Origin: Effrenium voratum
Lineage: Eukaryota > Sar > Dinophyceae > Suessiales > Symbiodiniaceae
Direction of reading: 5' to 3'
Assembly (NCBI GenBank): GCA_963377175.1
Contig: CAUJNA010002890.1
Location: 557,510-621,509 of the forward strand
DNA length: 64,000 bases
Shown: one piece after another, positions 3,416-63,777 of the stretch
Numbering within the stretch: position 1 is the first letter of the stretch
How the letters are laid out: each line of letters opens with the position of its first letter
Notes under the pieces: generated by a model
What the model was told of the DNA's origin: nothing
Seen by the model: the letters and a program-made list of their open reading frames with translations, nothing else
Database searches by the model: none
Translations under genes and position numbers: made by a program

Positions 3416-3543
3416 CTAGGTCCCCCCAGCTAGGTGCCAACTTTTACCGTTTCTTTTTTTGGGGAGGGTTTCCCTACTAAAATAGACGTCCTGAAAAAAG
3501 AAACGGTACCCTTATTCGAACAAACCTCTACTGGAGGACCTAG
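3416..3543. mobile_element. Family A element, copy 1
   Basis: 128 bp with ends CTAGGTCCCCCC and GGAGGACCTAG. A stray right-end-like CTACTGGAAGACCTAG lies about 100 bp downstream (3639-3654). Confidence 0.75.
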
Positions 3544-4562: not shown

Positions 4563-4830
4563 CTTTTCCTTTTTGCGGGGAGGGGGGGTCCTTTTTGTTG
4601 TGCGGGCATCACATGTTTTTTCTCTACCCCGGGATTCAATCCACCATAGCAATTTAAGCAATAAGGGGTTCACACAACCACCATTGTTTACCCAAGGATT
4701 GTAATAATGTAAGTTGGGTCAGCTATTCTTTTAATGGGTCTTGAACCCTAGGATAAGTAGGTTATAACCATGGTCAAAGGAAGTTTAACAAGAAACTTCC
4801 GTAGTACTGGAACTAAATGAGCTAGCTGCT

Positions 4831-5041
4831 TTGACATATAGCTATGACAGGTAGCTAGCATGACAAATAGATAGCTTTGACATATAGCTAGCTTGACAGA
4901 TAGAAAGCTTTCCAATAGGCCAGCATGACAGATAGATAGCTTTGACATATAGCCAGCTTAACACATAGATAGCTTTCCAAAGACTAGCATGACAGATAGA
5001 TAGCTTTGACATATAACCAGCTTGACAGATAGATAGCTTTA
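4831..5041. repeat. GATAGATAGCTTT minisatellite
   Basis: Imperfect tandem units built from AGCTTTGACATATAGC and GCATGACAGATAGAT, repeating at roughly 28 and 57 bp. First block of the satellite complex. Confidence 0.75.
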
Positions 5042-5093: not shown

Positions 5094-6420
5094 GCTGGGG
5101 GATAGCAAGTTGCAGAAACGTTGGTGCCATGCGTGAATTGGGCTTCCGGACAGTGCGCAAACCACCTCGGTCGCGACGCCTGTACGGAGGCGGTCTCGGA
5201 ACGGTCCCGGAACGGTCTCGGAACGGTTCGGAACGGTCTCGGAGACGGGACCATTGGCACGGCCGCGCGAAGGTTTCGCAAGGTTTGAATTGCGTGGCAG
5301 GCGCAGCACTTTCGCAAGGTCAAGTGTAGATTTCGTGACAGGCGCAGCACTTTCGCAAGGTCAAGTATAGATTTCGTGGCAGGCGCAGCACTTTCGCAAG
5401 CACTCTCTGCGAGCTGGGGGATGGCAAGATGCAGAAAACGTTGGCGCTGTGCGTGAATTGGGCTTCCGGACAGTGCGCAAACCACCTCGGCTGCGACGCC
5501 TGTACGGAGGCGGGTCGGAACGGGTCTCGGAACGGTCTCGGAGACGGGACCATTGGCACGGCCGCGCGAAGGTTTCGCAAGGTTTGAATTGCGTGGCAGG
5601 CGCAGCACTTTCGCAAGGTCAAGTGTAGATTTCGTGACAGGCGCAGCGCAGCACTTTCGCAAGGTCAAGTATAGATTTCGTGGCAGGCGCAGCACTTTCG
5701 CAAGCACTCTCTGCGAGCTGGGGGATGGCAAGATGCAGAAAACGTTGGCGCTGTGCGTGAATTGGGCTTCCGGACAGTGCGCAAACCACCTCGGCTGCGA
5801 CGCCTGTACGGCGGCGGTCTCGGAACGGAACGGGTGCGGAACGGTCTCGGAGACGGGCCCATTGGCACGGCCGCGCGAAGGTTTCGCAAGGTTTGAATTG
5901 CGTGGCAGGCGCAGCACTTTCGCAAGGTCAAGTGTAGATTTCGTGGCAGGCGCAGCACTTTCGCAAGGTCAAGTATAGATTTCGTGGCAGGCGCAGCACT
6001 TTCGCAAGGTGAAGTGTAGATTTCGTGGCAGGCGCAGCACTTTCCCAAGGTCAAGTGTAGATTTCGTGGCAGGCGCAGCACTTTCGCAAGGTCAAGTATA
6101 GATTTCGTGGCAGGCGCAGCACTTTCGCAAGGTCAAGTATAGATTTCGTGGCAGGCGCAGCACTTTCGCAAGGTCAAGTGCCAAATTCGTGGCAGGCGCA
6201 GCACTTTCGCAAGGTCAAGTACAAAATTCGTGGCAGGCGCATCACTTTCGCAAGGTCAAGTACAGAATTTGTGGCAGGTGCAGCACTTTCGCAAGGTCAA
6301 GTGCAAAATTCGTGGCACGCGCAGCACTTTCGCAAGGTCAAGTACAGATTTTGTGGCAGGCGCAGCGCTTTAGCAAGGTCAAGCACAGATTTGGTGGCAG
6401 GCGCAGCATTTTTGCAAGGT
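5094..6420. repeat. Higher-order satellite with 41-bp units
   Basis: Three near-identical blocks of about 300 bp start at GAGCTGGGGGATGGCAAG (about 5090, 5411, 5716). Each contains a GC-rich part with repeated CGGAACGGTCTCGG and a run of 41-bp units (GTGGCAGGCGCAGCACTTTC...). After the third block the 41-bp unit alone continues to about 6420 with gradual divergence. Because 41 is not a multiple of 3, long open frames across it on both strands are artefacts of low stop density. Confidence 0.85.
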
Positions 6421-7340
6421 CAACTTTCGCAGCCGGGGCTCGAAAATCGCAACTTTTAAGTACGAAAGTAGTACGCGAAGTCAACTTTCGCAGCTGGGGC
6501 TTGAAAATCGCAACTTTTAAGTACGAAAGTAGTGCGCAAAGTCCACTTTCGCAGCCGGGGCTTGAAAATCGCAACTTTTAAGTACGAAAGTAGTACGCAA
6601 AGTCCACTTTCGCAGCTGGGGCTCGAAAATCGCGACTTTTTAGTACGAAAGTAGTACGCGAAGTCCACTTTCGTAGCTGGGGCTCGAAAATCGCAACTTT
6701 TAACTACGAAAGTAGTACGTGAAGTCCAGTTTCGCAGCTGGGGCTCGAAAATCGCAACTTTTAAGTACGAAAGTAGTACGCGAAGTCAACTTTCGGGGAT
6801 TGAACATCGCAACTTTTAAGTGCAGAGAAAGATGGGTAGATAGATAGATCAATAAACAGATATAGAGATAGCTAGAGAAATAGATAGAAAGAGATAGAGA
6901 AACAGAGATAGACAGAGATAGATAGATTTGTAGATAGATAGACAAATAACTAGCTAGATAGATAGAGGGAGATAGATAGATAGGAGATAGAGAGGTAGAT
7001 AGATAGGTAGATCTATAGATAAATCGCAACTTTTAAGTACGAAAGTAGTACGCGAAGTCAACTTTCGCAGCTGGGGCTTGAAAATCGCAACTTTTAAGTA
7101 CGAAAGTAGTGCGCAAAGTCCACTTTCGCAGCCGGGGCTTGAAAATCGCAACTTTTAAGTACGAAAGTAGTACGCGAAGTCCACTTTCGCAGCTGGGGGA
7201 AAATCGCAACTTTTAACTACGAAAGTAGTAAAGTCCAGTTTCGCAGCTGGGGCTCGAAAATCGCAACTTTTAAGTACGAAAGTAGTACGCGAAGTCAACT
7301 TTCGGGGATTGAACATCGCAACTTTTAAGTGCAGAGAAAG
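6421..7340. repeat. 61-bp satellite, two blocks around a GATA tract
   Basis: Units of 61 bp (CTTTCGCAGCTGGGGCTCGA...) occupy 6424-6820 and 7020-7340, separated by a GATA/GAGA tract at 6826-7020. The junction sequence (TTTCGGGGATTGAACATC then AAGATGGGTAGATAGATAG) occurs twice, at about 6790 and 7300, showing that a segment of about 510 bp was duplicated. Confidence 0.85.
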
Positions 7341-18507: not shown

Positions 18508-20312
18508 GAAGCCGCCGGCTCCGAAAGCGACGATGTACATACCCTGGTGGTGGACGGAAACCCGGCAGCTTGTCTTGAGCTACACTGGGGTGTCTTGTTT
18601 TCTCTTCTTCTTTTTTTTGGTGTGGGGGGGGGTGTCCGTTTTTTTTTGGGCGGGTGGGAGCAACCTTTGGCTGGTTTGAAAGGCACTGGTTCGGGGAAAC
18701 CCTCTAACATTATTGTTGTTTGGTTTGATTTGTGTTTGCTTTGATCTAGTTTGGAGGCTAGGAGATTGGTTGTGTTGGTTATGTTATCGTTTCTTTTCGT
18801 AGTGGTGTTGTTGCTTTCTCACTCGGCGAGCTGTGATAGTGTGTATGATTTTGTTGGAGGGGTCTTCCTTTGAAACCAAGTACCAAAACAAAGCGTGGCT
18901 TTTCAAATGAGGGTTCTTGTACAGGGTAGATGGGAAACAATAAACCACCCCGGAAGATCACCAAACCACCAATTAGAGGGAAGCTGATACCCCCTTGAAA
19001 GCAACTCTATACCAAAGCAAGGAGTGCCGTGTTTTCCCATGGCCACTTGGGGTTCCGAAAAACCGAGCGAGGTCAAGGTGGACAAGTTGGGCCCGCTGGT
19101 GATCAACACCGATGGGTCTATCGCACGCCCCTGGACGATGCGGCGAGGGTTGGGTTTCGGGACGGTCTTCTTCCATTTGCTTATGTTTTATGTTCCCTTG
19201 TCGGTTTTACAAGGAATTTGTCACTACTGATGTTTTATCCAGGGGTCTCAACCAAATGGAAGTCTTGTAGTACCCTTTCGTGGATCCCCACCCGCCCAAA
19301 CACCCCCTTGGGAAAGACAAATATTGACCATTTTGGGTTTGGCGTGCTTGGGGTGGTGGTGTGTTTGGTCCTAGGAAAAGTTGATGATGCGGTTTTGTTG
19401 GGTTTGAGGGGAAGGTCCTGGTCGTTTGCAAGAAGCCAAACGGAGGTTGTCAAAAGAGTGGTCAGAAGACGTTTTCCAGGCTTGGCCCAAGGGCGAAGCA
19501 GAAGCAAGCAGTCGGTTTGTTGATCAGCGGGTACCAAAAGCGAGACTTCACTCGACCCAAACTACTCAATAAGCATCTAGGTCCCCCAGTAGTGCCCTGA
19601 AAACCCTTTTTTGAGGGAGGGTTCCAGACTACAGAAAGGGTACCCTTATTCTAACCTCTCTGCTGGAGGACCTAAAGGGAATGATTCCATCGCTCGTGGG
19701 ATGTGCTCACCTGGCTTCCACCAAGTACAGCTGACATCACGTGGGCTTGGTGCATGCCATTGGGAGCTTCTCAGTTCTCCAAACGCGCCCCAGGAGTCAG
19801 CCAGGAGGTCGGTTTCTTCCATTTGCTTGCGTAAGAATATTTTTTATTTTCCCTTGTTGGTTTTAAACGGAATTTATCGGACATATTTTGTTCTACCCAG
19901 GGGTCTTAGCCAAATGGAAGGTGGCGTCAATCCGCAGAGGGATTTGAGGGGCATTTGACCGGATCGTAGGGGAGGTCCTGGTAGAAGCCCTTGTGTGGTA
20001 TTCGGAGGGGCGCCCAGCTGCCACATTGACACATTGTCCCCTTGGTTGCAGGGTTCTGCCTTTCAACATCAACCAACAACTGGGTTCCAAATCGCAACAA
20101 TGAAGAAGCGTATGAAAAGGGGGCTCATGTTCTTTTTGTCCAGACCCCCCAGAAGAGGGTGCCCGTTCTTTTCCCACGGCTCGATTGGGTTGCTAGGCAT
20201 CAACAACTGGCACGAGATGGCGGAGATCGAGAAGCAGAACACGCTGCGGGTTCTGGGCAGGAGGAACAAGCAGAGGCACGGCCTTGAGGTTTCGATCGGA
20301 CGACCAAGCTAG
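18508..20312 (+). CDS. Three-exon gene end with NTDGSIAR-INNWHEM motif
   Basis: Exons are 18508-18589, 19022-19126 and 20197-20312. Exon 1 reads EAAGSESDDVHTLVVDG and ends in phase 1 before GTGTCT. Exon 2 reads EKPSEVKVDKLGPLVINTDG then SIA and stops one base into a codon before GC. Exon 3 starts after TTGCTAG and reads INNWHEMAEIEKQNTLRVLG then RRNKQRH, with TAG at 20310-20312. The joined motif LGP-V-N-DG---RI-NW-EM-E-E--NTLR-L-RN--R is one I recall near the C terminus of many algal, plant and fungal proteins; its function is not known to me. The GC-AG intron (19127-20196) holds two family B copies and one A copy. Exon 3 could instead donate at 20289 (GAG then GTTTCG). Product unassigned. 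Confidence 0.6.
19170..19262. mobile_element. Family B element
   Basis: Ends CTTCCATTTGCTTATG and TCAACCAAATGGAAG; lies just inside the intron after 19126. Confidence 0.75.
19577..19675. mobile_element. Family A element, copy 2 (short)
   Basis: Left end CTAGGTCCCCCAGTAG, right end CTGGAGGACCTA. The middle lacks about 20 bp present in other copies. Confidence 0.75.
19816..19920. mobile_element. Family B element
   Basis: Ends CTTCCATTTGCTTGCG and TCTTAGCCAAATGGAAG; internal AAACGGAATTTATCGGACA. Confidence 0.75.
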
Positions 20313-20672: not shown

Positions 20673-20800
20673 CTAGGTCTCCCAGTAGTGCCCTTTTACC
20701 AACTTTTTTGGGGGAGGGTTCCCCCTACTAAAATAAACGGAATTAAAAAAACAAAAGGCGGGTACCAACTTATTCTAACCTCAAATCTGGAAGGACCTAG
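20673..20800. mobile_element. Family A element, copy 3
   Basis: Ends CTAGGTCTCCCAGTAG and CTGGAAGGACCTAG. Flanked by a perfect 4-bp duplication ATTA on both sides. Confidence 0.85.
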
Positions 20801-21864: not shown

Positions 21865-23758
21865 GACGGTAGCACGTTGTGTGGCGCGCTTAAAAGCCGC
21901 GAGGTGCGGCATTTGGACGTTTGCCTTTGAGTTCTTCCATTTCGAGGGTTCCCAAGGCCTGGACGCGATGAACAAGATCAGCTCCTACTGCCAGAACCCG
22001 GGCACTCGGCGCCGCATTTTCGAGGCGAGGGCGAAGCGACGTGTTCCCCTGGAGTTGTTCTTCGGACTTCGTTTAAAGGAAACCCTGGAAACCTCCTAAA
22101 ACTTGCCCAGTGCTTCCAGTTACCTCCATGTGCGGAACCAGTGAAATTGGGGCCCGGAACCGTGTGAAAAAAGGCCCGGAACCGTGAAAAAGAGGCCCGG
22201 AACCGTGAAAAAGAGGCCCGGAACCGTTAAAGCTGTTAGACAGGAATCTGGTTCCCACTTTTTTGGGAACCAAGCCTGGTTCCAAAAAAACAGTCGCCAA
22301 CGGCCAGTTACTAGCTATACAGGTTACTAGGAGTCGCTGGGTTGGGGGGGTACAAGTTTTCTTTGACACGTGCCTGGGAATATGACGGAGAAACATGACG
22401 ACATGAGTTGCGTACCATGTGTAATCTCGAATTCAAAAGAACCTTTCAACGGTTTGGGGTTTAGGGTTTAGGGTTTAGGCTTTAGGGTTGATGCTTGATT
22501 TCTTTTCGGACGCCACGCAAACAAGGCCCAGGGACCCTCCAACACGAACTCACAGATTGTCCATCCTTTCATCAGGGCACCAAACGCAACCGAACATAAG
22601 CACAAAAGCAGCCAGCACTCATATAGTATGGGCCTTGAGAAGGGCAGCTTTCCTTTTGGGTTCCCCTTAAACCAAGACAAGGGTACCTTTCGCCTCAAGA
22701 GAACGAGGCACACTCCCATATTGTCGAATTGTTGAAGCTCAGCTCTGGCCAATTCTTTCCGTAAACAGGCTACAACGGTAGTAAGGGGACCAACCCCAGC
22801 CCTAGTTAGAACCACAGTTATAGCCTGCTTTACTGACGTTGATTGAACATCCAAGCGGAAATATGAAGCATATTGAACTTATTGGTTTCTGGGCGCATTT
22901 TGGTGTTGGGCCAAGAGGGGAGGTGGCAGAAACACAATTTCCCAAAACAACCCGATAAACAAGATGTTCTGAGAGGTGTGCGCAAACCAAAAAAACAAAA
23001 CTGCCCGAAACTGCCTGGGAACGCCCCCGTTTGAGCGATCCCGCGTTCGGGGCCGCCAATGAAGGGGCTGAGAAACTCCCTGTAATAGGTGTCCTTTTTG
23101 GATTGTTTTGGAAGAAGAACAGATGGCCCTGGTTTACCCGGCGGTTCAGTCATCTACCAGGGCCATTTAACGGTAGACCCAGAGACCCATGCAGAAATAC
23201 CTCAGGCGTCTGGCTCCTCACCAACGACACCTATGCTCCCCGTGGCATGTTTAAAGCTCAGCGGCCTTGTCGTAGGCCTTCTATGCCAACTTCGACCAGG
23301 TGGATGAGGCGCCGCCGATCGGGTTCTGTCGGCCGCTCGCTGCGAGGAGGTCAGGGCAAGGTTTGCTTGGGCGCCGAGTGTTTTTTGTTGAGGGTATACC
23401 CCAAATCGGGGTGGTTTTGAAGGGAAGCCAAGGGAAAACCAGAGTCTTTTTTGGGGGGGTCCTAGTTCAAGACAAACCCGTGTGAGCACCAACTGGCCAT
23501 TTGAGTTGGTGGTTCTATTTGGTTTATGGGGAGTACTGCAAGGGCCCGCATGAAGACCTTTACAAAGAGTTGGTAGAACCAAGGGTAAGCGGGTTTTGGG
23601 CGATCGTCTGAAATATGTTGTGGCATCCAGCTCGCGGTCTCCGCGATTGCGCTGAGACCGCAAGTCATATCGACCAGGAGATGGGCTCCACTCAGCCACT
23701 CTCAACAATTGAGGACCCCTCAAAATTTGAGGACCCCTCAGAATTTGAGGATCCCTGA
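21865..23758 (+). CDS. Five-exon 3' end of a gene, unknown product
   Basis: Exons 21865-22053, 23036-23081, 23276-23349, 23506-23584 and 23657-23758 join in phase throughout. Readable pieces are SQGLDAMNKISSYCQNPGTR and RRIFEARAKRRVPL; DPAFGAANEGAEKLP; AFYANFDQVDEAPPIGFCRP; WWFYLVYGEYCKGPHEDLYK then ELVEPR before a canonical GTAAGC donor; and TASHIDQEMGSTQPLSTIED followed by a threefold ED-PS-F-like acidic end, with TGA at 23756-23758. Donors are all GT (GTTGTT, GTAATA, GTCAGG, GTAAGC). The first intron (about 980 bp) holds repeat L and a telomere-like array; the second holds a family F element. Together about 160 residues. The Trp/Tyr-rich fourth exon suggests a folded domain, but I do not recognise it. 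Confidence 0.6.
22097..22343 (+). repeat. Repeat L, copy 1, with 21-bp tandem units
   Basis: Starts CCAGTGCTTCCAGTTACC and ends TACTAGGAGTCGCTGGG. Inside are about four 21-bp units GGCCCGGAACCGTGAAAAAGA (22152-22230), then a hairpin GGTTCCC...GGGAACC. A second copy at 51206-51534 is almost identical outside the tandem part. Confidence 0.85.
22451..22490 (+). repeat. Interstitial telomere-type repeat (TTTAGGG)n
   Basis: Four to five units of TTTAGGG, one with a C substitution (TTTAGGC). TTTAGGG is the telomere repeat reported for dinoflagellates and plants. Confidence 0.8.
23085..23235. mobile_element. Family F element
   Basis: Ends ATAGGTGTCC and GACACCTATG. Flanks CTCCCTGTA and CTCCCCGTG look like a diverged 9-bp target duplication. 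It lies in the intron between 23081 and 23276; the donor GTAATA uses the flank/element junction. Confidence 0.6.
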
Positions 23759-28904: not shown

Positions 28905-29325
28905 GTTCCTCGCTTGCTGGGTTCCAGAAATGGGATTTTGTGGGGAAATGTGTTGTGTTTTTTCGTCTCCCTGGTCTACAATGCGGGCACTTGTCGAAAA
29001 TTGGCGCTTGCAAACGCAAGTCTGGGTGTAGTATACTCCATGCATGTGAAGGGGGTTGGGCCCAGTTTCTTTTTTGATGCTATACTCTAAGGGTCCTGAT
29101 AGAGTCACCAACTCGGGGTGTGGTACGAACGGGTTCCGGAGATCTGCGTACCACGCCTGATCGGACACTTGGATGGTTAGACACCTGGATAAAACGCAGT
29201 AATAGTAAGATCAACTCCACGGAACGGGAGCGTTTTTGACCGGGTTATAACCGAACAGTTACCAACAACTGACTAACTTGGCGAATCGAACAGCCAAGCA
29301 GGGTAGATTCCAAGAGTTTACCCAG

Positions 29326-29401
29326 GCAGACATCGCCACGAGCGCGCGAGGTGATCAAGAAAATGACGGAGTGGAGCCAGAAAGGCGAGGGACGATTGAA
29401 C
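29326..29401 (+). CDS. Candidate exon, two open frames
   Basis: After TTACCCAG one frame reads QTSPRAREVIKKMTEWSQK and GEGRLN before GTTTGA. Another reads ADIATSARGDQENDGVEPER and stays open to 29450. Coding is likely; the frame is not settled. Confidence 0.35.
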
Positions 29402-29809
29402 GTTTGACACAGTTTGAAACGCGGAGCTGTCCTGAGGTACTAAAGGGAAATTAAGGGGAGCGCCACTATTGTGGAGGGGTTCCCGAACAAAAGACAGACC
29501 TGTGCCATGGTTTTAACAGACCCTTTACATGGGGTTGCTAGGATAGTCATGCACCTGGTTGTAGGGATGCTCAACAACCACCTCAGTGTAATGAGCAAAG
29601 GCCATGTAAAGCGTTTTGACCGTGGCGCAACTGGCTGTGGTTTTAATGGGATTCATGATTTAGCTGGGGATTCATGTCCACCCACACCTTTTCAGAGGGT
29701 TCCCGAGTGAAATTCATAGCCGCTCATAGCCATATTATCGGCCATGGTTAGCACACTCTTTTCTTTGGGTTGCTAGGCACAGTCAGGGACCCCTTCGTAG
29801 GGGTTTTAG

Positions 29810-32800
29810 AGAACCAATGAGTGTTGTGAGCAGGTATTAGAGCAGGAAAGCAAAGAAGGCAACACCATCGTTTGCACTGATGAAGGAGATGATGTTGTGG
29901 TACCCTTCCTCCCACTAACATGCCAGCTGACAGAAAAGTACGTCAACGCACTAGTTGGTCGAAGGCAACATAGTCAATGGGTTGGACGCACAGATAGAGC
30001 CACATTTCAGCGGCTCGCCCAAAACAGTTGCTTATTGGCAGGTTGAGTAGGTAGGTCAGCTGCTACTTGGGGTCTCCTCCTATCTTTTTGTGATTTCCCC
30101 AACAGCTGAAAGCGTTTTGGGGGTCGATAGGCCCAGATAGACTCTAGGGTGGTTTGGGTTGCAGCCTTGAGGAAGGGTTCCGGTGCTGTTGGGGATACCC
30201 ACCTGGACCTGGGCCCATTGAAGCTGATAGAATCTGAACAAAGAATCTGAATCTGAACATGGCTATGAATTTGTAGAGTCGGAACCACCTCAAAAGTGGT
30301 TGCTGGACATGAGCCCCCACCGAATTTTGATGTCCACCAACAAATCCCCCAGAAGTTGTGGCGGACATGAACTCCCACCTAAATGATGTCTACCAAAGGG
30401 TCCCCCAGTGAAATTCGTGGCCATATGATGTTTCGCCCAGATTTAGATGATAGCCTCGTTTGTAGCACCGGGTTTCGACCTGCGATCCGTAGGCGCTGGG
30501 CGCAAGCAAGTCAGCCACGTGGACGAGGTGAGGCATGCAGTTTCAACCGCAGCCCTTTTCTTGGTGCTTAGAAGCGAATGCGGGTTTTTCCTGGAAGCGA
30601 ATGAGGGAAGTCCGTGTGTTTTTTCCTTCAAGGGAATTTAAGGGGATCCCTACTGTGGCATTCGAATGAGGGACTCCCTTATTGTTTTTTCCTTTAAGGG
30701 GATCCCTGCGGTTGGCTCTTAGAAGCGAATGAGGGTGTTTCCTTTAAGGGGATCCCTACTGTGAATGCTTGCAAAATGCATTTCGCACAGCCGTTCAGAA
30801 ACCCTGGAATATTTCGATTCCCGTGTACATACCAACCAACAATGGTTTCAAAGTGCAGAATTTCGTCCATCCACAGTAGGTTCATTCCCAAAACCCTTGG
30901 TGTTTTCCTGAGAACCGACAATTGTCCAGGAACTATGAACCACTGCACTCTGTTAACCGATGCAACCTGGCCAAGAACTGGGTCCATGAAAGTGAACATA
31001 AGGCGTTCCGGTTGTTTTCTTTGCATCATGGACCCCTGGGCCAGCAGGGCCCCTTAAAAGATACATTTTGCCCATTTGAAACATGGCTTTTTCCACCAAC
31101 ACAAAGGGAAACCACCATGTACAAGGCAATGTTTAGGTGTATAATGTAAGGATTCCTGGGCTATCCCTTGTTAATCCCGTGACAAGGCCCTACTACGGGT
31201 TTATCAACTTGGCTTATCCAGGGATAGCCCCCTCTAGGGCTCCATGATGCAAAGCACCCATTTAGCTCAGGTAGCCTTTGAGGATTTCACGTTGTACTGT
31301 GCAGTTTGATTCGGTTGTAACCCAGGTCTATCTTGGCCAAACATCCAAGTAGGCTAGACGAAATATGAAACCGCACCAGAACATGTGCTGTGTACCCCCT
31401 GTTTGTGGGCCAAGAAATGACGGCAGTTTTCATAAAGTTGCAGTCATGTTAATAATGGGCGCTTCTCACAAGTACGGGGTTCCTTTTGATTTTAGTTTTC
31501 TGGAGATCAACCACCTGCAGGGGTCCGTAAGTTTGAGAATCACCCAAATCATACCAAGACTTAGTTCTATTTTTTACGCATGTCCATATATATATATATA
31601 TATACGAATACCAGCATTTGGCCAACTCAGAGGGCAAGCTTTGCGAACCAATTTCTACTTGGAGCGTGGGGGAGGAGTAACTGGCGGATTGCAGCTAACG
31701 TCCAGAAAGCTTGCGGCTAGGGGCTGAAAGTCTCTCTGACAAATTGGAACAAGCGTGTCGAAGTGTCCCTTGCCTCGTCCTCATGTTAAACATCACCTTT
31801 TCGGCCAATGTGCGGACCGTCCTTTTGTTTACTCGGGATAGGTTCACAAGTGTCACTTGGATTTATGCTCATCAACCATTTTCGAGGGTATTCGCCATTC
31901 AAGTCACAGGCACACAATGAACTGGGCGCCAAAATGCCCATATCCTTCCACAACAATCCCCAAAAGCAAACCACAGGGAGATGATGAGCACCCATAGTTT
32001 GACTTTCTCTGAAAGGAATCCATAAGGAGCTGGATTTGGTGGAGTACCTTTGGGTTCCTATACATGAGATGATTGCTTTTGGGACCACCCTTGTATTCTC
32101 TATATTCTCTAAGATGATGATTACCAAGTAGCTGGATGTATTCCTCGGAAAGGAATCCACAGAGAGCTGGATTTGTTCTGTTTGTTTTTCGTTTAAACAC
32201 CTTTTTTTTAAAACAAGGAAAAACAAGCTTTCAGCTGCCCGGATGTTTCTCGCCGCGCTTCCGATAGCTTCAAGAACTCGCTGGCTGGAGGCCTTCTGGC
32301 GCGCCCTGGTCACACGAGAGGCCGACACGTGGAAGCCGGGCACCTGGAAGCTCGTCTCAGGTTGGGGCAGTGGCTGTGGGGATGGGAGGGAGTTATTAAG
32401 CCCTTAAAGCCTTCTGGGTCCCCCAGTAGTGCCCTTTTACCGTTTCATTTTTTGGGGAGGGTTCCTCTACCAAAATAGACCACAGATAACAGGGTACCCT
32501 TATTCCAACTTGTCTACTGGAGGACCTAGCCTGAGTTGGCTCTGAAAGTGGAGATGGGAGTCTTTTTTTGTTCATGGCTGGGTGGCGGATCCGGTGTTTC
32601 TTTCCTAAGGCCGGTTTTTCTAGGGCTGGGCCCCTGGTTGGGTGGTTGGGTGGGTGGTTGGTTGGTTGGTTGGTTGGTTGGTTGGTTGGTTGGTTGGTTG
32701 GTTGGTTGGTTGGTTGGTTGGTTGGTTGGTTGGTTGGTTAGTTGGCTGGCCGCATCCCCGGCATCACCAGCCTCACTTGGATGTGGTTGGGTGGCAGTTG

Positions 32801-35800
32801 GGAGTTGCTGGGGGATGGTTTAAGTTAGGAGGGCTTTTGGCTGGCTTAGATCTTCATGAGGGTGGGTCTTTGGGGTGGATTTAGGCGAAGTGAAGGGCTG
32901 ACATCCAGGCTGCTGTTGGGCGGGTTTGGGGTTGACTTTCAGTGGGTTTGGGTTGGTTTGGAATACTCATGTCCCAAAAGGGAGCCAAACCCATATTTGC
33001 TGTGTAAATGACCCACAATTTCATGTTTTTTTCCAGACTTAGCACCCAAACCATACCGAGGTTTTAACGTCTCCTGCATCCATCCCAGGCTGGCCCAGTT
33101 CCTACCTGCCGACCGGTGCATGCCGCAAGCTGAGGTTTGAGCGATGACTGTTGGGTGGACCTGGTGGTTCCCTGGGGTTCGTCCCCCCCTCTAGGGCCTG
33201 CCCCCTTTGGGGGCACTCCATGAAAGTGAGATGCTCAAGTTCAGGGGAAGGGTTGAGGGGGGATGGGTGAGTATTTCCAGCCTGCCCCTCCTTGGTTGCC
33301 ATGTGGTTAACGGGAACCTGTTGAACCCATCTGGGCATGTGGTTACCTTCTATAATCCCTAGGGTTCAACCCCCAATCAGAAGAATGGTTAACCCAATTG
33401 AGATGATGACAATCCCTAAATAGACAGTTTTATATTTCCCAGCCAGTCCTGCCTGAATCCCGGGGTGTGTTGTTTGGTTGCTTGGTCCTGCCCGAAGTGT
33501 CCTTTGACCCGACTGTTGAGGACCCAGGGAGTCCCACACCCCATCTATTTTTTCAGATCCGCGCCGCCTGGCTGTGGCTCAAGATTAAACTGGAGGGGTT
33601 ACGCGGGTTTTGGTCCATGTGTCCACTTACCAAGGTTCCATTTTGGTACCGGTTTTTTGAGCCACAGCCGCCCATTTTTCGTGCCAGGTTTTTTTTCTTT
33701 GGGACAGCGGTCCGCAGCGGCTGGGCCGAAGCTCAAAGGCCCAAGCTGCTGGAGGTGGTGGGCAAGGCCTACTCCGTGACCTTTCGAGAGGCCCTCCGAG
33801 CCCGGTGGAAGGTTGATCGATCAACCCTGGGGTCCAATTTTCCAGGTCCCCCAGCGAAAGGGGGCCCGTGGACCGTTTTGTTTTTTTGGGGGGGGGAGGG
33901 TTCCCCTATTGAAATGGACTACAGAAAAAAAGGGTACCCTTAAGCCGTCCGGGTTCAAGCACCCCTCGGCTCAGGGAGCTGAGCCCCCGGGGCAGGGCTG
34001 GGGCTCCACTGCCCGGTCCTGCGTCCAAAAAGCCATGGCTGGCAGCTCTGTCTTCAACCTGCTTCTCGTGCACCCCCTGGTCACCCTCTTCATTCGCCGT
34101 GTTAGTGATGTGTCGTCTTCGGGGAGCTTATCCGCTTGGTGACGCATTCGTTGCTGGTCCGCTTCACCCGGGAGGCATCCTGGCCTTTGGGTCAGTCCCA
34201 GCCTCGAGACACCCCCTTTCTTAGGGGGTGAAGGTATTGCTGGCCCTCTTCGTTGTGCGCCTTCGGCCCCTTTGGTTCCTCGTTCTCTTCACGCTCTGCA
34301 TCTGCTTCTCTGGGCGGGTCTACCTGAGTGTGGGTTGTGCCCTTTTGACACCTTGGGCTTCTTCGGCGGTGGTGATGCGGGCTGCCTTGCCCATCGTGCC
34401 CTTGGGTCGTTAGGGCTGCTACCTCATGGTGCTTTCCATATCCCTGTGGCGTGTGCCAGTGGCTCCGGAGGTCCCGACTTCCTTGGGCTTGCTTGTCCAA
34501 CTTCGGGCCCTACGCTTGTACAGCAGTTTTGTGCCTTCCCCCTTCTTGGGGGGTGGGCTGCATCGGCCTTGCGGCCTTGTGGGGAAAGCCTGGGTTCCTG
34601 TGCGGGGGGGCCCACGGTGCAGCGCGGCTGTTGGGCCTGTTTGGGGTCCTTTGTGCCTTGGCGTACAGTGCGCCGGTGGGCCTCCTTTTGTGGGGTGCTC
34701 ACCCGGCCTGCGGATTGAGCCTCTGGCTCTCCGAGGCGCTTTGTCGTGTCACGGCCCTGAGGGCCTCCGTTACTGGTGGTGGGGCGGCATGCCCCACTCA
34801 CCAGCGCAGCCGATCGCGGATGCGCCATGTGGCAAAAGGGTACCCTTATTCTAACCTCTCTGCTGGAGGACCTAGTATTGCAACCACCCTCATCCAGCAA
34901 TCGATGCGTTCCTTCTGGTGTTCTATGAAAACCACCCCAGAAAGCCCTGGGATTCGGGCAGGCCACCGTTAAAGCAATGGTTGGCTTCATAGTTCACCAC
35001 TTTTGTTTACCTGAGGATTGTCATCATCCAAATCGGGTCAATCATTCCTTTAATTGGGGGTTGAACACTAGAGACAAGAGAAGGTGCGCCATTCACACCC
35101 AAATGGGTTCAATGGATTCCATTAAAAGAATGGCAACCAAGGGGACCCGATGTAGATGATGAGAATCCTGAATGGTAAACAATGGTGATGCAATATGAAT
35201 CCAACAACAATTGTTTTAACGGACCTAAGCTCACACCATGGTTTTCGGTGGTTAGCTACTTTCGGGGTAACTGGAAGCACAGGAAGGTCATAGAAGTTGA
35301 CAGGTTTTGCAACAGTCTTGTAAATGCATCCTGTCCATTTTCATTGTTGTTGGAAACAGGGCAAACGGGTCTTGTCTTGAATTGGAGACCCACAAAAGGG
35401 GTGGTTTCCTTTTGGTTTTCCTGCAAACAAAGCCCAAAAAGGGTATCCTCAAACAATGACACCCAAACATGTCAAGCCCCTTCCTACGTTGGCATGTCGA
35501 AAGCGGCCAAAGCATATTTTCCGGACTACCTTTGAAGAAACCACAATGTGAGTCAACGCAGATGAGTTGGATGTGATGGGTTATGAATCCTATGGAAGTT
35601 ACCAACCCCAAGTCAAGACAAAGGACCTGTTTGGATGGATTGCAAGTCGAGTGCTTCCAGCTGCACCCTTGTTTCATCAATATTCCAATCCTGTTTGCCC
35701 CTTAAAAATCGTGAAGCTTTGGCGAACATGATCCAATACTTTGGAGCTACCCGTGCATGAAGAGTATATCGCGTGAGGGTGGTCCCTAATTTGAGACAAA

Positions 35801-36711
35801 CCCAGGTTCCCTTGAAACCATCTAGGTCCCCCAGCTAGGTGCCCTTTTACCGGTTCTTTTTTGGGGGGAAGGTTCCCCTACTAAAATAGACTACAGAAAA
35901 AAGGGTAGGTACCAACTTATTCTAAGCTCTCAAATCTGGAGGACCTAGCCATCAACCAGTTAACGCCTTGCAGGTCGGATTTGTCAGGCAACTGCGTGCT
36001 GGTTTCCCTGCTTGTTTGCACTAGGCGGACTCTGCCAACGTGGTGTCCAGATTGATCAACGGCTGGCACCGATCGGTGCAAGTCTTCGAGGCGCGTGGTT
36101 TTCTCCTTTCCTTCTTTTTCCGTGCCCAAACGGAGCTGGGTGTAGCGGTTCCGCAGGCTTCTTGGTTTGTAATTGGTTTAGTTCTAGGGGTTGATTCCTT
36201 TTCCATTCTTTTCAACCATCGGTCTTTCCAAAAAACGGATCCGTTTTCTCTGGGTTTCAACGGCGGTTTTCTAGAAAGAAGGATCCCTGGGTTCAGAATG
36301 GAAATGGGAGGTACCCGTTTGGCCCCTGCCCAAGCGGAGCAGCTTTTAGAGGGTACTGCCCGGCCTATGTGGCGCAGGGGCAAGCATGCGGCAAAGCGCA
36401 AGTCGCGCATTTTGGTCGTCTTTGTTTACTTGGTGGCTCCCAGCCATCCGGTTCCTTAGCTTGTTGGCTTTTTAGTGTTTGGTGGGGATTTCCAGTTGAC
36501 CTACTAACAAGTTTAACTTTTAGCGGGGGGTCTGAGAACAGCCCAGTTTAGGTACTGCGATATTGTGCGATATGGTGGCAACTGACTATGATTTCCATGG
36601 AGAACGTCGACTCCCTCACAGAGGTTGGTGGAGTGACGTCCAGGGTCCCCAGGCAAACAGGGATGAGGGCCATCGGGCCGCCCTGCCTTTTCACCCAGGG
36701 TCCGAGGCCAG
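29810..36711 (+). CDS. Eight-exon gene model, unknown product, introns ending in family A
   Basis: Exons 29810-30041, 32235-32360, 33708-33811, 34876-34943, 35949-35973, 36025-36092, 36297-36414 and 36542-36711 join in phase at all seven junctions. Readable pieces: [20 protein letters not shown] and [38 protein letters not shown] and [100 protein letters not shown] then a basic run; [20 protein letters not shown] and [19 protein letters not shown]. About 300 residues. Donors are GT except GC at 34944 and 36093. Introns 3 and 4 both end with the terminal GGACCTAG of a family A element; intron 7 is essentially one family H element. Exon 1 lies beside repeats and is least certain. No domain recognised. 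Confidence 0.55.
31045..31158. mobile_element. Family P element
   Basis: Starts CAGGGCCCCTTAAAAGATAC and ends GTAAGGATTCCTG; interior nearly identical to 8472 and 58394. Confidence 0.65.
31586..31606. repeat. TA dinucleotide run
   Basis: (TA)n of about 20 bp. Confidence 0.8.
32414..32529. mobile_element. Family A element, copy 4
   Basis: Ends CTGGGTCCCCCAGTAG and CTACTGGAGGACCTAG; flanks GCCTT/GCCTG suggest a diverged 4-bp duplication. Confidence 0.8.
32638..32740 (+). repeat. (TTGG)n microsatellite
   Basis: About 24 perfect TTGG units in the intron between 32360 and 33708. Confidence 0.95.
33357..33464 (-). mobile_element. Family G' element, reverse
   Basis: Starts CCCTAGGGTTCAACCCCC and ends TGCCTGAATCCCGGGG, the reverse of 13362. 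Confidence 0.6.
33569..33669. mobile_element. Family J element
   Basis: Near-perfect inverted ends GGCTGTGGCTCAAGATTA and TTTTTTGAGCCACAGCC; lies in the intron before exon 33708. Confidence 0.8.
33842..34875. mobile_element. Family A element, copy 5, split by an insert
   Basis: Left part 33842-33942 (CAGGTCCCCCAGCG... to GGGTACCCTTA) and right part 34834-34875 (AAAAGGGTACCCTTATTC... to GGACCTAG) make one complete element when the insert 33943-34833 and one target copy are set aside. Its last AG is the acceptor used by exon 34876 in the gene model. Confidence 0.8.
33943..34833. mobile_element. 891-bp GC-rich insertion with 15-bp target duplication
   Basis: Flanked by identical AAAAGGGTACCCTTA at 33928-33942 and 34834-34848. 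The insert is clearly more GC-rich than its surroundings and has no terminal inverted repeat and no poly-A. A long, variable-length duplication without inverted ends fits target-primed retrotransposition (LINE or SINE, 5'-truncated) better than a DNA transposon. Long open frames exist on both strands (for example plus 34272-34718) but no reverse transcriptase motif was seen. It could be a retroposed non-coding RNA or part of a larger element. Confidence 0.65.
34944..35072 (+). mobile_element. Family G' element starting at a splice donor
   Basis: Starts GCCCTGGGATTCGGGCAGG and ends GGGGGTTGAACACTAG. In the gene model the preceding exon ends at 34943, so the element's first GC is the donor. Confidence 0.55.
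35822..35948. mobile_element. Family A element, copy 6, ending at a splice acceptor
   Basis: Ends CTAGGTCCCCCAGC and CTGGAGGACCTAG; flanked by a perfect CCAT duplication. The terminal AG is the acceptor for exon 35949. Confidence 0.85.
36184..36291 (-). mobile_element. Family E element, reverse
   Basis: Starts CTAGGGGTTGATTCC and ends AAGGATCCCTGGG; fills most of the GC-AG intron 36093-36296. Confidence 0.65.
36415..36541 (+). mobile_element. Family H element forming an intron
   Basis: From GTCGTC through TTGGTGGCTCCCAGCC to TAGCGGGGGGTCTGAGAACAG. The 127-bp interval between two phase-0 exons is almost entirely one family H copy (compare 58773-58878). Confidence 0.65.
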
Positions 36712-36832
36712 GTGAGCACCCAAAGCATCCCAAAACCAACATGCTGTGTTGGTAGATGGTCCGACCTTCATGCGGGTTGTTCGTAAGGTCTAGATTTTAT
36801 CTTTTGCATCCACAAAACACCAACATAAATAT

Positions 36833-36925
36833 ACCTGGAGTCTCCATGACCCTTCAAAAACGGGTCAATGACCCCAAAACTTTGGGTAATGCCTCCATTT
36901 TTCAAGGGTCACGGAGACTCCAGGT
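36833..36925. mobile_element. Family D' foldback element
   Basis: Perfect ends ACCTGGAGTCTCC and GGAGACTCCAGGT. Flanked by two diverged copies of GGTAGATGGTnC...TTTCATGCnGTTG, at about 36751 and 36930. Confidence 0.8.
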
Positions 36926-37117
36926 ATCGGTAGATGGTTCTACTACCTTTCATGCAGTTGCTATCAAGCGCAGACTCGAGCCCCGAGCTCGGCGTCAGGT
37001 CACAGATGGGCCGCCGTCCACGGCCGGCGACTCAGGGTTCTTACTCAAAGGGGTCGCGGCCAATGTCAACGAATGGGAACCCCGGATTCACAAACCTCTA
37101 GGGTTCAACCCAGTATA

Positions 37118-37217
37118 CTCACTCCCTGAGTTCCTGGACTTTAAACTTTTTGGGAAGACCATTTTAGTGGTGAACAGAAAGTTTGACTTTTTTTGGCCCA
37201 TCAACTCAGGAAGTGAG
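37118..37217. mobile_element. Family C element
   Basis: Ends CTCACTCCCTGAGTTCC and AACTCAGGAAGTGAG; compact, intact copy. Confidence 0.75.
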
Positions 37218-37308
37218 ATATGGACACCCATTGCTTTGGGGGTGATTTGAGTCCCAGGGTTGGGAACAAGGATTTGGTACACCCCTGAAACCCAAACGCT
37301 GTGGTGAG

Positions 37309-37377
37309 GTTCGGCAAGAGGGGAGCAGAGGCCTGCTCGGATACGTCTACCTCGATCTCTACCGAAGGACGCGGAGA
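37309..37377 (+). CDS. Possible M3 metallopeptidase exon (GLLGYVYLDLYRR)
   Basis: After GTGGTGAG one frame reads VRQEGSRGLLGYVYLDLYRR then TR. The stretch G-LGY-Y-DLY-R is, from memory, a conserved strand just before the zinc-binding region of mitochondrial intermediate peptidase-type M3 peptidases. A candidate HELGH exon lies on the same strand at 44550. Against it: another frame here (EACSDTSTSISTEGRGDES) is also open, and the intervening M3 segment was not found. The likely 3' edge is a GC donor near 37370. Confidence 0.35.
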
Positions 37378-38318
37378 TGAAAGCTTTGAAACATGTTCTT
37401 CACATGGGGGTTGATGGTCCAAAAATGACCATGGATAACTTGTCCCATGTGGTGAAGGTCAAATCTGTTTCGGGGCTTTGCCTGGTCACCCCATGCATGC
37501 CCAGTTGTGACAGGTGAAAAAGGTCCTGGAAACGTCCCTGCCCCAAAGTGCACTGAGCCATGAAAGCCGCGCCCGCCAGTTCCATGTTGGTGCTTTTGCG
37601 AGAGGAGAAGAGAAGGTTGGGGACAGTCCCTTGGGTCATAGTCGACAGATTGGTTTTGGCTTGACCCCCAGGTTGCGATTTTCTGCACCGATCAGACAAG
37701 TCAAGATGGGTTCCTAAAACACAACACGAGGTGATTGATCTGCATGTTCGTGCTGGCAATCAGGGGAAACCATCCATGGTAAAACCTAGAGGGAAAACTA
37801 CCAAAGGGGTGCCTCCCACAATGGTAACTGGAAGTGCTCGGAGATGAAAGGTAAGTACCTTCTCCTGGCTGATGTCTCATTCCATTTCTGTGGCGTATTT
37901 TTGCATTCCGCCGTTCGGCTCCTCAAGATGTGCAGAGGGAATCGCGCCACGAATTGGTTGAGTTGGATCCCTCGCAAAGCATGGGTTCTGCTGGAGCATC
38001 AGTGTGCTCAGGTGACAACTAATCATTCCATGGTTTCTCAACGGTCAACGGTGGAGCGAATTGGTTCTCGCAACAATCCACAGTAATTCGATAGAAACCG
38101 ACAAAACAACGACAGGCCAAGTACTTTCAAAGGGACGATCGATCCGGTTGTAACCCACAAAAGCCATGGTTGTAAGTCTCTAGTCGGTAGGTGGAGGGCC
38201 AGGCACCGGAGCAGTAGCTCAGTAGGAACACGTCCAAGTTAGCGCCAGCTATAGTCCCTGACAGAGATAGCACAGGCAAAGGTAGGGTTCTGTGTCACCC
38301 TGATGGTTACAGTATGTT

Positions 38319-45013: not shown

Positions 45014-45217
45014 TCACTTCCTGAGTTCCGCTTCGGACTTTCAACTTTTTGGGGTTGGACCATTTCCTAGGTGCCCCAGTAGTGCCCTTTTACCTTTTTT
45101 TGGTGGAGGGTTCCCCTACCAAAATAGACTACAGAAAAAAGGGTACCCTTATTCTAACCTCTCTACTGGAGGACCTAGATTTCAGACTTTTGACCCATCC
45201 AGTCGATCGGAAGTGAG
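45014..45217. mobile_element. Family C element interrupted by family A
   Basis: Left end CTCACTTCCTGAGTTCC and right end GATCGGAAGTGAG belong to one C element; an A copy sits inside at 45067-45178. Confidence 0.75.
45067..45178. mobile_element. Family A element, copy 7, nested in family C
   Basis: Ends CTAGGTGCCCCAGTAG and CTACTGGAGGACCTAG; flanked by ATTTC on both sides. Confidence 0.9.
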
Positions 45218-48197: not shown

Positions 48198-48312
48198 CTA
48201 GGTCCCCCTGCTAGGTGCCCTTCTCGCCCCTTTTTGGGGGGAGGGTTTCCCTTCTAAAACAGACTACACAAAAAGGGTACCTTTATTCTAACCTCTCTAC
48301 TGGAGGACCTAG
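48198..48312. mobile_element. Family A element, copy 8
   Basis: Ends CTAGGTCCCCCTGCTAG and CTACTGGAGGACCTAG; flanks GTGA/GTGG suggest a mutated 4-bp duplication. Confidence 0.85.
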
Positions 48313-51205: not shown

Positions 51206-51534
51206 CTAGCCCAGTGCTTCCAGTTACCTCCATGTGCGGAACCAGCTTGGTTACCTGCCATATTGGTAACAGACCGCTGGTTCCAGGAACCACAAAAAAA
51301 GGGCCCGGAACCGTGAAATTGGGGCCCGGAACCGTGAAAAAAAGGCCCGGAACCGTGAAAAAGAGGCCCGGAACCGTGAAAAAGAGGCCCGGAACCGTGA
51401 AAAAGAGGCCCGGAACCGTTACAACCGTTAGACAGGAATCTGGTTCCCACTTTTTTGGGAACCAAGCCTGGTTCCCAAAAACACAGTCGCCAACGGCCAG
51501 TTACTAGCTATACAGGTTACTAGGAGTCGCTGGG
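51206..51534 (+). repeat. Repeat L, copy 2, with 21-bp tandem units
   Basis: Same ends and hairpin as 22097-22343, with about six GGCCCGGAACCGTGAAAAAGA-type units (51302-51421) and an extra TTGGTTACCTGCCATATTGG segment before them. Confidence 0.9.
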
Positions 51535-51536
51535 TA

Positions 51537-51648
51537 TGTTTTCCAGTAGTGCCCTTTTGAAACTGGGGGGAGGGTTCCCCTACTCAAATGTTCAAATAGA
51601 CTACAGAAAAAAATGGTACCCTTATTCCAACCTCACTGTAGGACCTGG
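51537..51648. mobile_element. Family A element, copy 9, degenerate
   Basis: Left end eroded (TTTTCCAGTAGTGCCC), right end CTGTAGGACCTGG; middle typical with a short internal duplication (TCAAATGTTCAAATAG). Confidence 0.75.
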
Positions 51649-52732: not shown

Positions 52733-53001
52733 TGGAAACCACAAGTTGAATGGTTTATCGGGGCCATGCCACGGACGGAGTCTAGGTCCCCCAGCGAAAG
52801 GGTGCCCTTTCTCACCCAAATCTTTTTGGGTTGGGAGGGTTCCCCTACAAAAATGGGCTACAGCAAAACGGGTACCAAATTATTCTAACCCCTCTACTGG
52901 AGGACCTAGGAGTGGTTCTTGCGATCGGTGCGAGAGTGGGGAATGAGCCAACAAATTCCCTGAAAGGAAACCACAAGTTGAATGGTTTATAGGGCCCATT
53001 C
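52674..53001 (+). repeat. Imperfect 95-bp direct repeat flanking a family A copy
   Basis: 52674-52770 and 52909-53000 share GTTCTTGCGAT-GG-GAGA near their left ends and GAAACCACAAGTTGAATGGT at their right ends. The family A copy lies between them. Confidence 0.65.
52782..52909. mobile_element. Family A element, copy 10
   Basis: Ends CTAGGTCCCCCAGCG and CTACTGGAGGACCTAG, flanked by a perfect GAGT duplication. Confidence 0.9.
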
Positions 53002-60798: not shown

Positions 60799-60936
60799 CT
60801 AGGTGCCCCAGCAATTGGTGCCAACTTCTCTCCCGTGTCCAATTTTTTGGGTTGGGAGGGTTCGGGACCCTACTAAAATGGACTACAGAGAAAAGAAATG
60901 GTACCCTTATTCTAACCTCTCTACTGGAGGACCTAG
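60799..60936. mobile_element. Family A element, copy 11
   Basis: Ends CTAGGTGCCCCAGC and CTACTGGAGGACCTAG; slightly longer because of a TTCGGGACCC insertion. No clear duplication. The preceding sequence (60710-60798) has a protein-like frame (EAEGKPPKPRRDHRASAGV) that could be spliced across it. Confidence 0.85.
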
Positions 60937-62536: not shown

Positions 62537-62751
62537 CCATTTGGGTGTGGCTCAAAACTTTAGAACTAGGGTTACGCAGGTTTTAGTCTTCTGGGTGTCC
62601 CAGTAGTGGCCTTTTGCCCTTTCTTGGGGGGGGTTCCCTTACTAAAATAGACCACAGAAAAAAGGGTACCGGGTATCTCCACTGGAGGACCTTGTCTTTC
62701 TTGCCACTTGCCAATGCCACTTTGGTCTCCATGTCCTTGAGCCACAGCCAT
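62537..62751. mobile_element. Family J element interrupted by family A
   Basis: Left TGGGTGTGGCTCAAAAC and right CCTTGAGCCACAGCC are one J element; A copy 12 sits in the middle. Confidence 0.75.
62591..62694. mobile_element. Family A element, copy 12, nested in J
   Basis: Ends CTGGGTGTCCCAGTAG and CACTGGAGGACCTT; TCTT is repeated on both sides. Confidence 0.85.
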
Positions 62752-63170: not shown

Positions 63171-63296
63171 CTAGGTCCCCAGCTAAGTGCCACTTTACCA
63201 ACTCTTTTTTTTGGAAGAGTTCCCCTGCTAAAAAAATGGACTACAGAAAAAATAATGCGCACCAAAAATCCTAACCTCTCAAATCTGGAGCACCTA
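63171..63296. mobile_element. Family A element, copy 13
   Basis: Left end CTAGGTCCCCAGC, right end CTGGAGCACCTA is diverged. Confidence 0.8.
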
Positions 63297-63777
63297 TGGC
63301 AAGCGCCTGGAAACACCGGGTTCACCAAAAGTGGAACCCAGTGAACCGGCCCAAAAGAGATTGGTCGTCAGAGGTTGACCATGGACAGAGGCTTCACAAC
63401 CTGGTTGATTCATAAAGCGTCTCCCATTGAAGAGGGTCTAAGATGGTCTCTGCTGCCCTTAAGCCACTACCCTCAGTGGTCAAGAATATAAGTGCCGTAT
63501 AATTGCAATTTCCTGCTGGGGGTGCTGGTTTGAGGGTGGCAGAGAGGGAATCCTGAACGCTTTTTAGATTTCGGCAAGCCTCGTTTGGTGTCCCTTCGGA
63601 AACGGTGAGTCACAAATGGAAGGAGGCGGACACTTGAAAAGTGGCAGACAGGAATCTCCCTAAATGATGCCCACCAAAGGGCCTCCAATTCAAATTCATT
63701 TGGAGGGTATCAGTTTTTTTGGGGGATGTAAGGGAAAGCCCAAAGGATCACCATTTTGGGGGTCCCCCAAAAGAAGC

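Follow-up and report, generated by a model that had tools for sequence, protein, structure and literature searches.

A stretch of 64,000 nucleotides (the window) from the dinoflagellate Effrenium voratum, located on contig C2888 (CAUJNA010002890.1, positions 557,510 to 621,509), carries copies of a short repeat, here named family A, two of which end at positions 34875 and 35948. The assembly searched comprises 1.156 Gb in 3,699 contigs. Family A is best read as a non-autonomous DNA transposon of high copy number, similar to miniature inverted-repeat transposable elements (MITEs); its inverted repeats, duplications and copy number were observed directly. It appears to be present almost only in sense orientation, within introns of unidirectional gene blocks, and the intronic placement was observed in one mapped gene. 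The copies ending at 34875 and 35948 are probably passengers of one long GC-AG intron (33791-36024) and not suppliers of splice acceptors, as judged from the placement of homologous proteins. Taken jointly, these three parts (a MITE-like element, an intron passenger at the two sites and a near-exclusive sense orientation) form a reading that we consider likely.

Sixty-two full-length copies gave a family A consensus that is non-coding and has a length of 114 bp, and the copies diverge from it by 3.8-26% (median 11.6%). Its terminal inverted repeats (TIRs) are 16 bp long, with 15 of the 16 end bases complementary in the 62-copy consensus by inspection. The target site duplications (TSDs) are 4 bp long; among 60 full-length copies they are perfect in 17 (0.61 expected) and match at 3 or 4 positions in 32, and inspection revealed no shared motif able to fix the orientation. 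The exact 13-base family A end occurs 20,426 times genome-wide, a count to which a few copies may contribute both of their ends, compared with 67 for a control. In the window, the 13-mer CTGGAGGACCTAG was found 22 times with up to two mismatches (1.4 expected; none of 100 shuffles reached 22), and together with its inverted partner CTAGGTCCCCCAG it delimits elements of about 100-138 bp. TIRs and a TSD of fixed length, by which MITEs are recognised, are both present, as are the many similar copies across the genome that mark introners. MITEs are short, non-coding, high-copy elements with TIRs and TSDs, usually without strand preference; family A shares this anatomy but differs in its almost all-sense orientation. 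It would have originated by cut-and-paste transposition.

A total of 89 family A hits were located in 276 kb, all of them on one strand in the window (14 of 14 plus, representing 13 elements) and on contigs C3 (27 of 27 plus), C2 (29 of 29 minus) and C1 (15 of 15 minus), while locus L018 held three plus and one minus. With six loci added, 88 of 91 copies in 305 kb run along the gene block, and all three antisense copies are in the 10-kb locus L018, including two weak fragments and the only full-length antisense copy found (4722-4833), which is flanked by perfect TAGA duplications. The fetched regions were picked for family A copies, for filling gene gaps or for kinesin exons, which biases the density of copies. 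Among copies with a perfect TSD, 16 of 17 are sense. Neighbouring family A ends agreed in strand in 92 of 97 cases (first 100 places listed, three contigs), compared with 71 in the best of 10,000 shuffles.

The direction of the blocks corresponds to that of the genes. Pfam matches were obtained in 8 of the 20 coding-like open reading frames (ORFs) submitted, covering five genes: carboxypeptidase S10 and RCC1/ubiquitin on C3 (plus), kinesin and ankyrin on C2 (minus), and methyltransferase on C1 (minus). The kinesin match was below the curated cut-off; nevertheless, the kinesin exons are colinear on the block strand. When non-overlapping ORFs were ranked by a coding-likeness score written by us, in which the block was not used, the best ones agreed with the block in 20 of 20, 29 of 30, 37 of 40 and 50 of 60 cases down the ranking.

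Sense polarity is common to eight further short families and absent in others within the same genes. In de novo repeat families counted without L018, the polar ones (sense:antisense) were F25 (24:0), F18 (29:1), F17 (28:1), F11 (11:0), F10a (13:0), F10b (10:0), F7 (15:0) and F5b (6:0, a weak count from a small family whose model also matches TA repeats), while F5 (66:0) was recognised as family A itself. The non-polar families were U26 (19:19, with copies confined to plus blocks), P26 (20:16), U14 (8:11), U13b (9:13), U9 (8:8) and U8 (7:10); F19 (5:19) and U13 (13:3) were intermediate, and F6 stood at 6:9. Family A was fixed beforehand, and the polar labels of the other families were assigned after the data had been seen. 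In genes fixed by homology, polar families gave 43 sense hits and one antisense at the loci used for their definition (two of the 18 family A hits being pieces of one element), compared with 28:26 for non-polar families, including U9 (5:0) and the palindromic P26 (7:7). Five new kinesin loci gave 4:0 for polar families, one of the four being family A. In the 10-kb locus L035, selected for two known plus-strand family A ends, the other polar families were plus in 5 of 5 cases and the non-polar ones showed two plus and one minus.

Several candidate explanations of these differences were rejected. A 3'-terminal AG is not shared by the polar families (F11 is polar yet ends in CTG, and U14, with CTAG near its ends, is unbiased), and the unbiased U14 may also have 4-bp TSDs, against TSD length as the cause. 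The mainly-sense branch-point motif is confined to family A, and palindromy of the non-polar controls fails as an explanation, P26 alone being clearly palindromic (7:7 of the 28:26). An end pattern of F17 (4,306 forward and 4,195 reverse occurrences, strands mixed) matches both element ends and is uninformative on orientation.

The preliminary description stated that the terminal CTGGAGGACCTAG of family A ends exactly at 34875 and 35948 and that exons around these positions join in open frame, both of which we reproduced (the exons as reconstructed). Its proposal that the two positions are splice acceptors was not supported: the exons 34876-34943 and 35949-35973 are matched by none of four homologs (the peptide of 35949-35973 was not included in the query of the homolog search), conserved coding sequence lies elsewhere, and the acceptors read AG|T and AG|C, not AG|G, so that both exons were rejected. 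The homologs (P0001-P0004) were found by a protein search with a possible exon peptide at E values up to 1, P0001 being the only strong one (E 2.3e-5) and the other three lying at 0.09 to 0.19. When placed on the window, they matched at 33716-33793 or 33737-33808 and at 36028-36093, and weakly at 33084-33122.

According to these matches, the plus-strand gene model consists of a possible coding exon at 33089-33115 (LAQFLPAD..., weak match to P0004), a coding exon at 33739-33790 (matched by P0001-P0004; start inferred), what is probably one GC-AG intron (33791-36024, 2,234 nt) with both family A elements inside it (boundaries inferred from P0001), and a coding exon at 36025-36090 (matched by P0001; GC comes next). 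Conserved coding sequence stops at 33790 (GAG|GC) and resumes at 36025 (CACTAG|G), and a single intron is proposed because the homolog-matched exons on its two sides join in phase; P0001 carries TFRE and later VDPPTWATRLISGWHKSVQVYE, consistent with this join. Both family A copies would be removed with the host intron through the proposed acceptor, which lies 76 nt past the second copy. Pfam scans of three homologs and two peptides of the window gene, a PDB sequence search and a longer-protein search gave nothing useful, nor did Rfam, tRNA and viral-contig scans.

On C3, five homologous proteins, one of them from Symbiodinium natans, whose SCPL48 is among the best matches, served to place a serine carboxypeptidase gene at about 269-303 kb. 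One homolog gave the bounds of eleven introns (561-5,014 nt) under a script in which a donor had to be GT, GC or GA and an acceptor AG; of the donors, nine were GC, one GT and one GA, and 10 of the 11 acceptors were AG|G. Such long introns with mainly GC donors and AG|G acceptors, together with the S. natans match and the genome size, suggest a dinoflagellate. The gene holds 13 family A copies, all sense, 11 of them within the eleven introns, and polar elements are present in 9 of the 11 introns. At none of the 11 acceptors does an element of the nine tested polar families end; the closest 3' end lies 233 nt away. Polar elements often start 30-95 nt past a donor (4 of the 9 element-holding introns, L013-L015); the corresponding distance in the window gene model is 51 nt. 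Across the 60 full-length family A copies, a donor-like left flank (G followed by T, C or A) was found in 8, of which 4 match at least three of the four TSD bases, and G was the next base after the element in 9; both counts fall below our rough guesses from base composition (about 11 and about 15, respectively).

These results bear on whether family A is a true introner, each copy of which would carry a working 3' splice site, with 34875 and 35948 used as acceptors. Introners of Symbiodinium microadriaticum are short elements with TIRs, a 4-bp TSD and their own 3' splice site, in which the element itself makes up the intron and the donor comes from the TSD (Gozashti et al. 2022, PMC9860276, Fig. 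2B; this and the other papers compared here are quoted from excerpts). Family A resembles them in its architecture, including the terminal AG, in length (115 positions in the published example, about 114-116 bp here) and in its dinoflagellate host; a branch-point-like CTAAC with pyrimidines in the sense copies and the single open frame of the previously proposed exons also fit an introner. On the other hand, the left flanks of family A are mostly not donor-like, so a donor from the TSD is not general, and the mapped copies lie inside longer introns with their ends away from the intron boundaries, at none of the eleven acceptors and 76 nt short of the one modelled in the window. The AG|G of the mapped acceptors, compared with AG|T and AG|C at 34875 and 35948, and the lack of homolog matches to the exons behind them point in the same direction, and a true introner is therefore considered unlikely. 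The introner-like character proposed in the preliminary description thus stands as regards TIRs, 4-bp duplications, the AG end and near-strict sense orientation; the supply of acceptors to two introns and a general position of family A ends on splice sites are not supported. Family A is not classed as an introner because the splice-boundary test failed where it was possible, and it is described here as introner-like in anatomy but a passenger of introns, although related copies may act as introners.

The likeness to the S. microadriaticum introners is drawn from their published description, and a relationship between the two is possible. In Polarella and other dinoflagellates, introners were reported to create introns and to form many families per genome (Roy et al. 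2023, as cited in PMC11453091), and many families likewise occur in one genome here; strand polarity away from splice sites, noted here, is unmentioned in the excerpt of PMC11453091. In Amoebophrya, the introner elements carry inverted repeats along with direct repeats of 3-5 nt at the intron borders; their splice sites are non-canonical and, in the excerpt of PMC7789003, family-specific inverted repeats are absent, in contrast to the single fixed TIR of family A. In Prorocentrum cordatum, introner-containing introns were defined by inverted and direct repeats near the intron ends (PMC10666404); inverted repeats in long dinoflagellate introns are common to both, while the mapped family A copies lie away from the intron ends.

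Some observations weigh against the reading of family A as a sense-oriented passenger. The 3' end of family A resembles an acceptor in parts when read in sense: a CTRAY motif is present in the last 60 nt of 39 of 62 family A copies in sense but in only 1 of 62 in antisense, and the pyrimidine fraction at -35 to -13 is 0.71 in sense versus 0.26 in antisense; certain genes or isoforms could use family A as an acceptor. Exon-by-exon mapping with good proteins covers the carboxypeptidase gene only, in which the first intron passes over a small unmapped exon and the tenth is poorly bounded and scored. The window gene model is built on short matches with window-scale E values of 9e-6 and 8e-5; a short piece of P0001 matches 35976-36011, within the proposed intron, where we can only guess that intron sequence was read through in P0001, and the matches of P0002-P0004 overshoot the proposed donor by about six residues, which the model does not explain. 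As regards block direction, all 20 Pfam-tested ORFs were on the block strand, which makes this no blind test, and the best ORFs of L035 lie on both strands (five plus and three minus among the eight listed).

The polarity would stem from transcription, through either oriented insertion or the removal of antisense copies. Under selection, insertion would occur both ways and antisense copies would be lost because they harm splicing or transcription; the full-length antisense copy of L018 with its perfect TSD indicates that antisense insertion can occur. Such selection would need to remove antisense copies almost totally, even deep within introns of several kb, the copies with perfect TSDs are 16 of 17 sense, and other asymmetric short elements are unbiased in the same genes; we regard selection as possible, with less than even confidence. 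Sense landing might instead result from transposition coupled to the direction of transcription or replication, or proceeding via an RNA copy. The near-absolute bias across several unrelated families fits such oriented integration, as does the lack of a common target-duplication motif that could fix the orientation. TIR elements are normally orientation-blind, which argues against it. The methods section of PMC9860276, in the part quoted, allowed for introner copies in opposite orientation, and U14 is unbiased despite possibly having 4-bp TSDs; oriented integration is a tentative explanation as well. The rarity of antisense among perfect-TSD copies (1 of 17) leans slightly towards oriented integration, but perfect duplications date the copies only coarsely.

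The same-strand runs might also be an artefact of assembly or family definition, for which the post-hoc labels of the families other than A leave room. Family A was predefined, its runs occur on four contigs and both strands, the other polar families agree in L035 (5 of 5) and in the five kinesin loci (3 of 3), and other families in the same sequence are unbiased; an artefact is very improbable. A wider proposal, that unrelated short elements integrate in fixed orientation to transcription, beyond surviving in that orientation, and that repeat orientation alone reads the direction of every block, is speculative and less likely than not.

The one-way orientation of family A is unusual. Among the matches listed from the open-access literature, no title or abstract opening named such a polarity (Roy et al. 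2023 was not covered). It is a matter of debate whether introner-like elements spread as DNA or via RNA (PMC9860276, as excerpted), and intronic, nearly all-sense copies off the splice sites offer a direct test, because selection on splicing should be weakest away from splice sites. If the polarity is genome-wide, repeat orientation would allow the transcription units of dinoflagellate assemblies to be mapped without recourse to RNA.

All 13 family A elements of the window are on the plus strand, one being split into two hits and one degenerate. The split copy (33842-34875; 128 bp without its insert, flanks TTTT/TATT, 3 of 4 matching) was opened up by an 891-bp insertion with a GC content of 63% (33943-34833), bordered by 15-bp direct repeats AAAAGGGTACCCTTA at 33928-33942 and 34834-34848; no further copy of the insert was found in the loci searched, and a plus-strand Pfam scan of 29000-38000 gave no match. 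The second copy of the same intron is full length (35822-35948, TSD CCAT/CCAT). The remaining elements lie at 3416-3543, 19577-19675 (99 bp), 20673-20800 (TSD ATTA/ATTA), 32414-32529, 45067-45178 (duplication ATTTC/ATTTC), 48198-48312 (flanks GTGA/GTGG), 51538-51646 (degenerate), 52782-52909 (TSD GAGT/GAGT), 60799-60936, 62591-62694 (TSD TCTT/TCTT) and 63171-63297. The element at 48198-48312 is the sole GT-type candidate in the window for an intron made of a whole element.

A copy of the short repeat family F19 lies at 33569-33669, on the minus strand as set by an arbitrary model. The window also contains tandem arrays at 5774-7259, with units of 41 bp and 61 bp, and a 21-bp unit resembling GGCCCGGAACCGTGAAAAAGA forms two further arrays about 29 kb apart, at 22124-22252 and 51275-51444.

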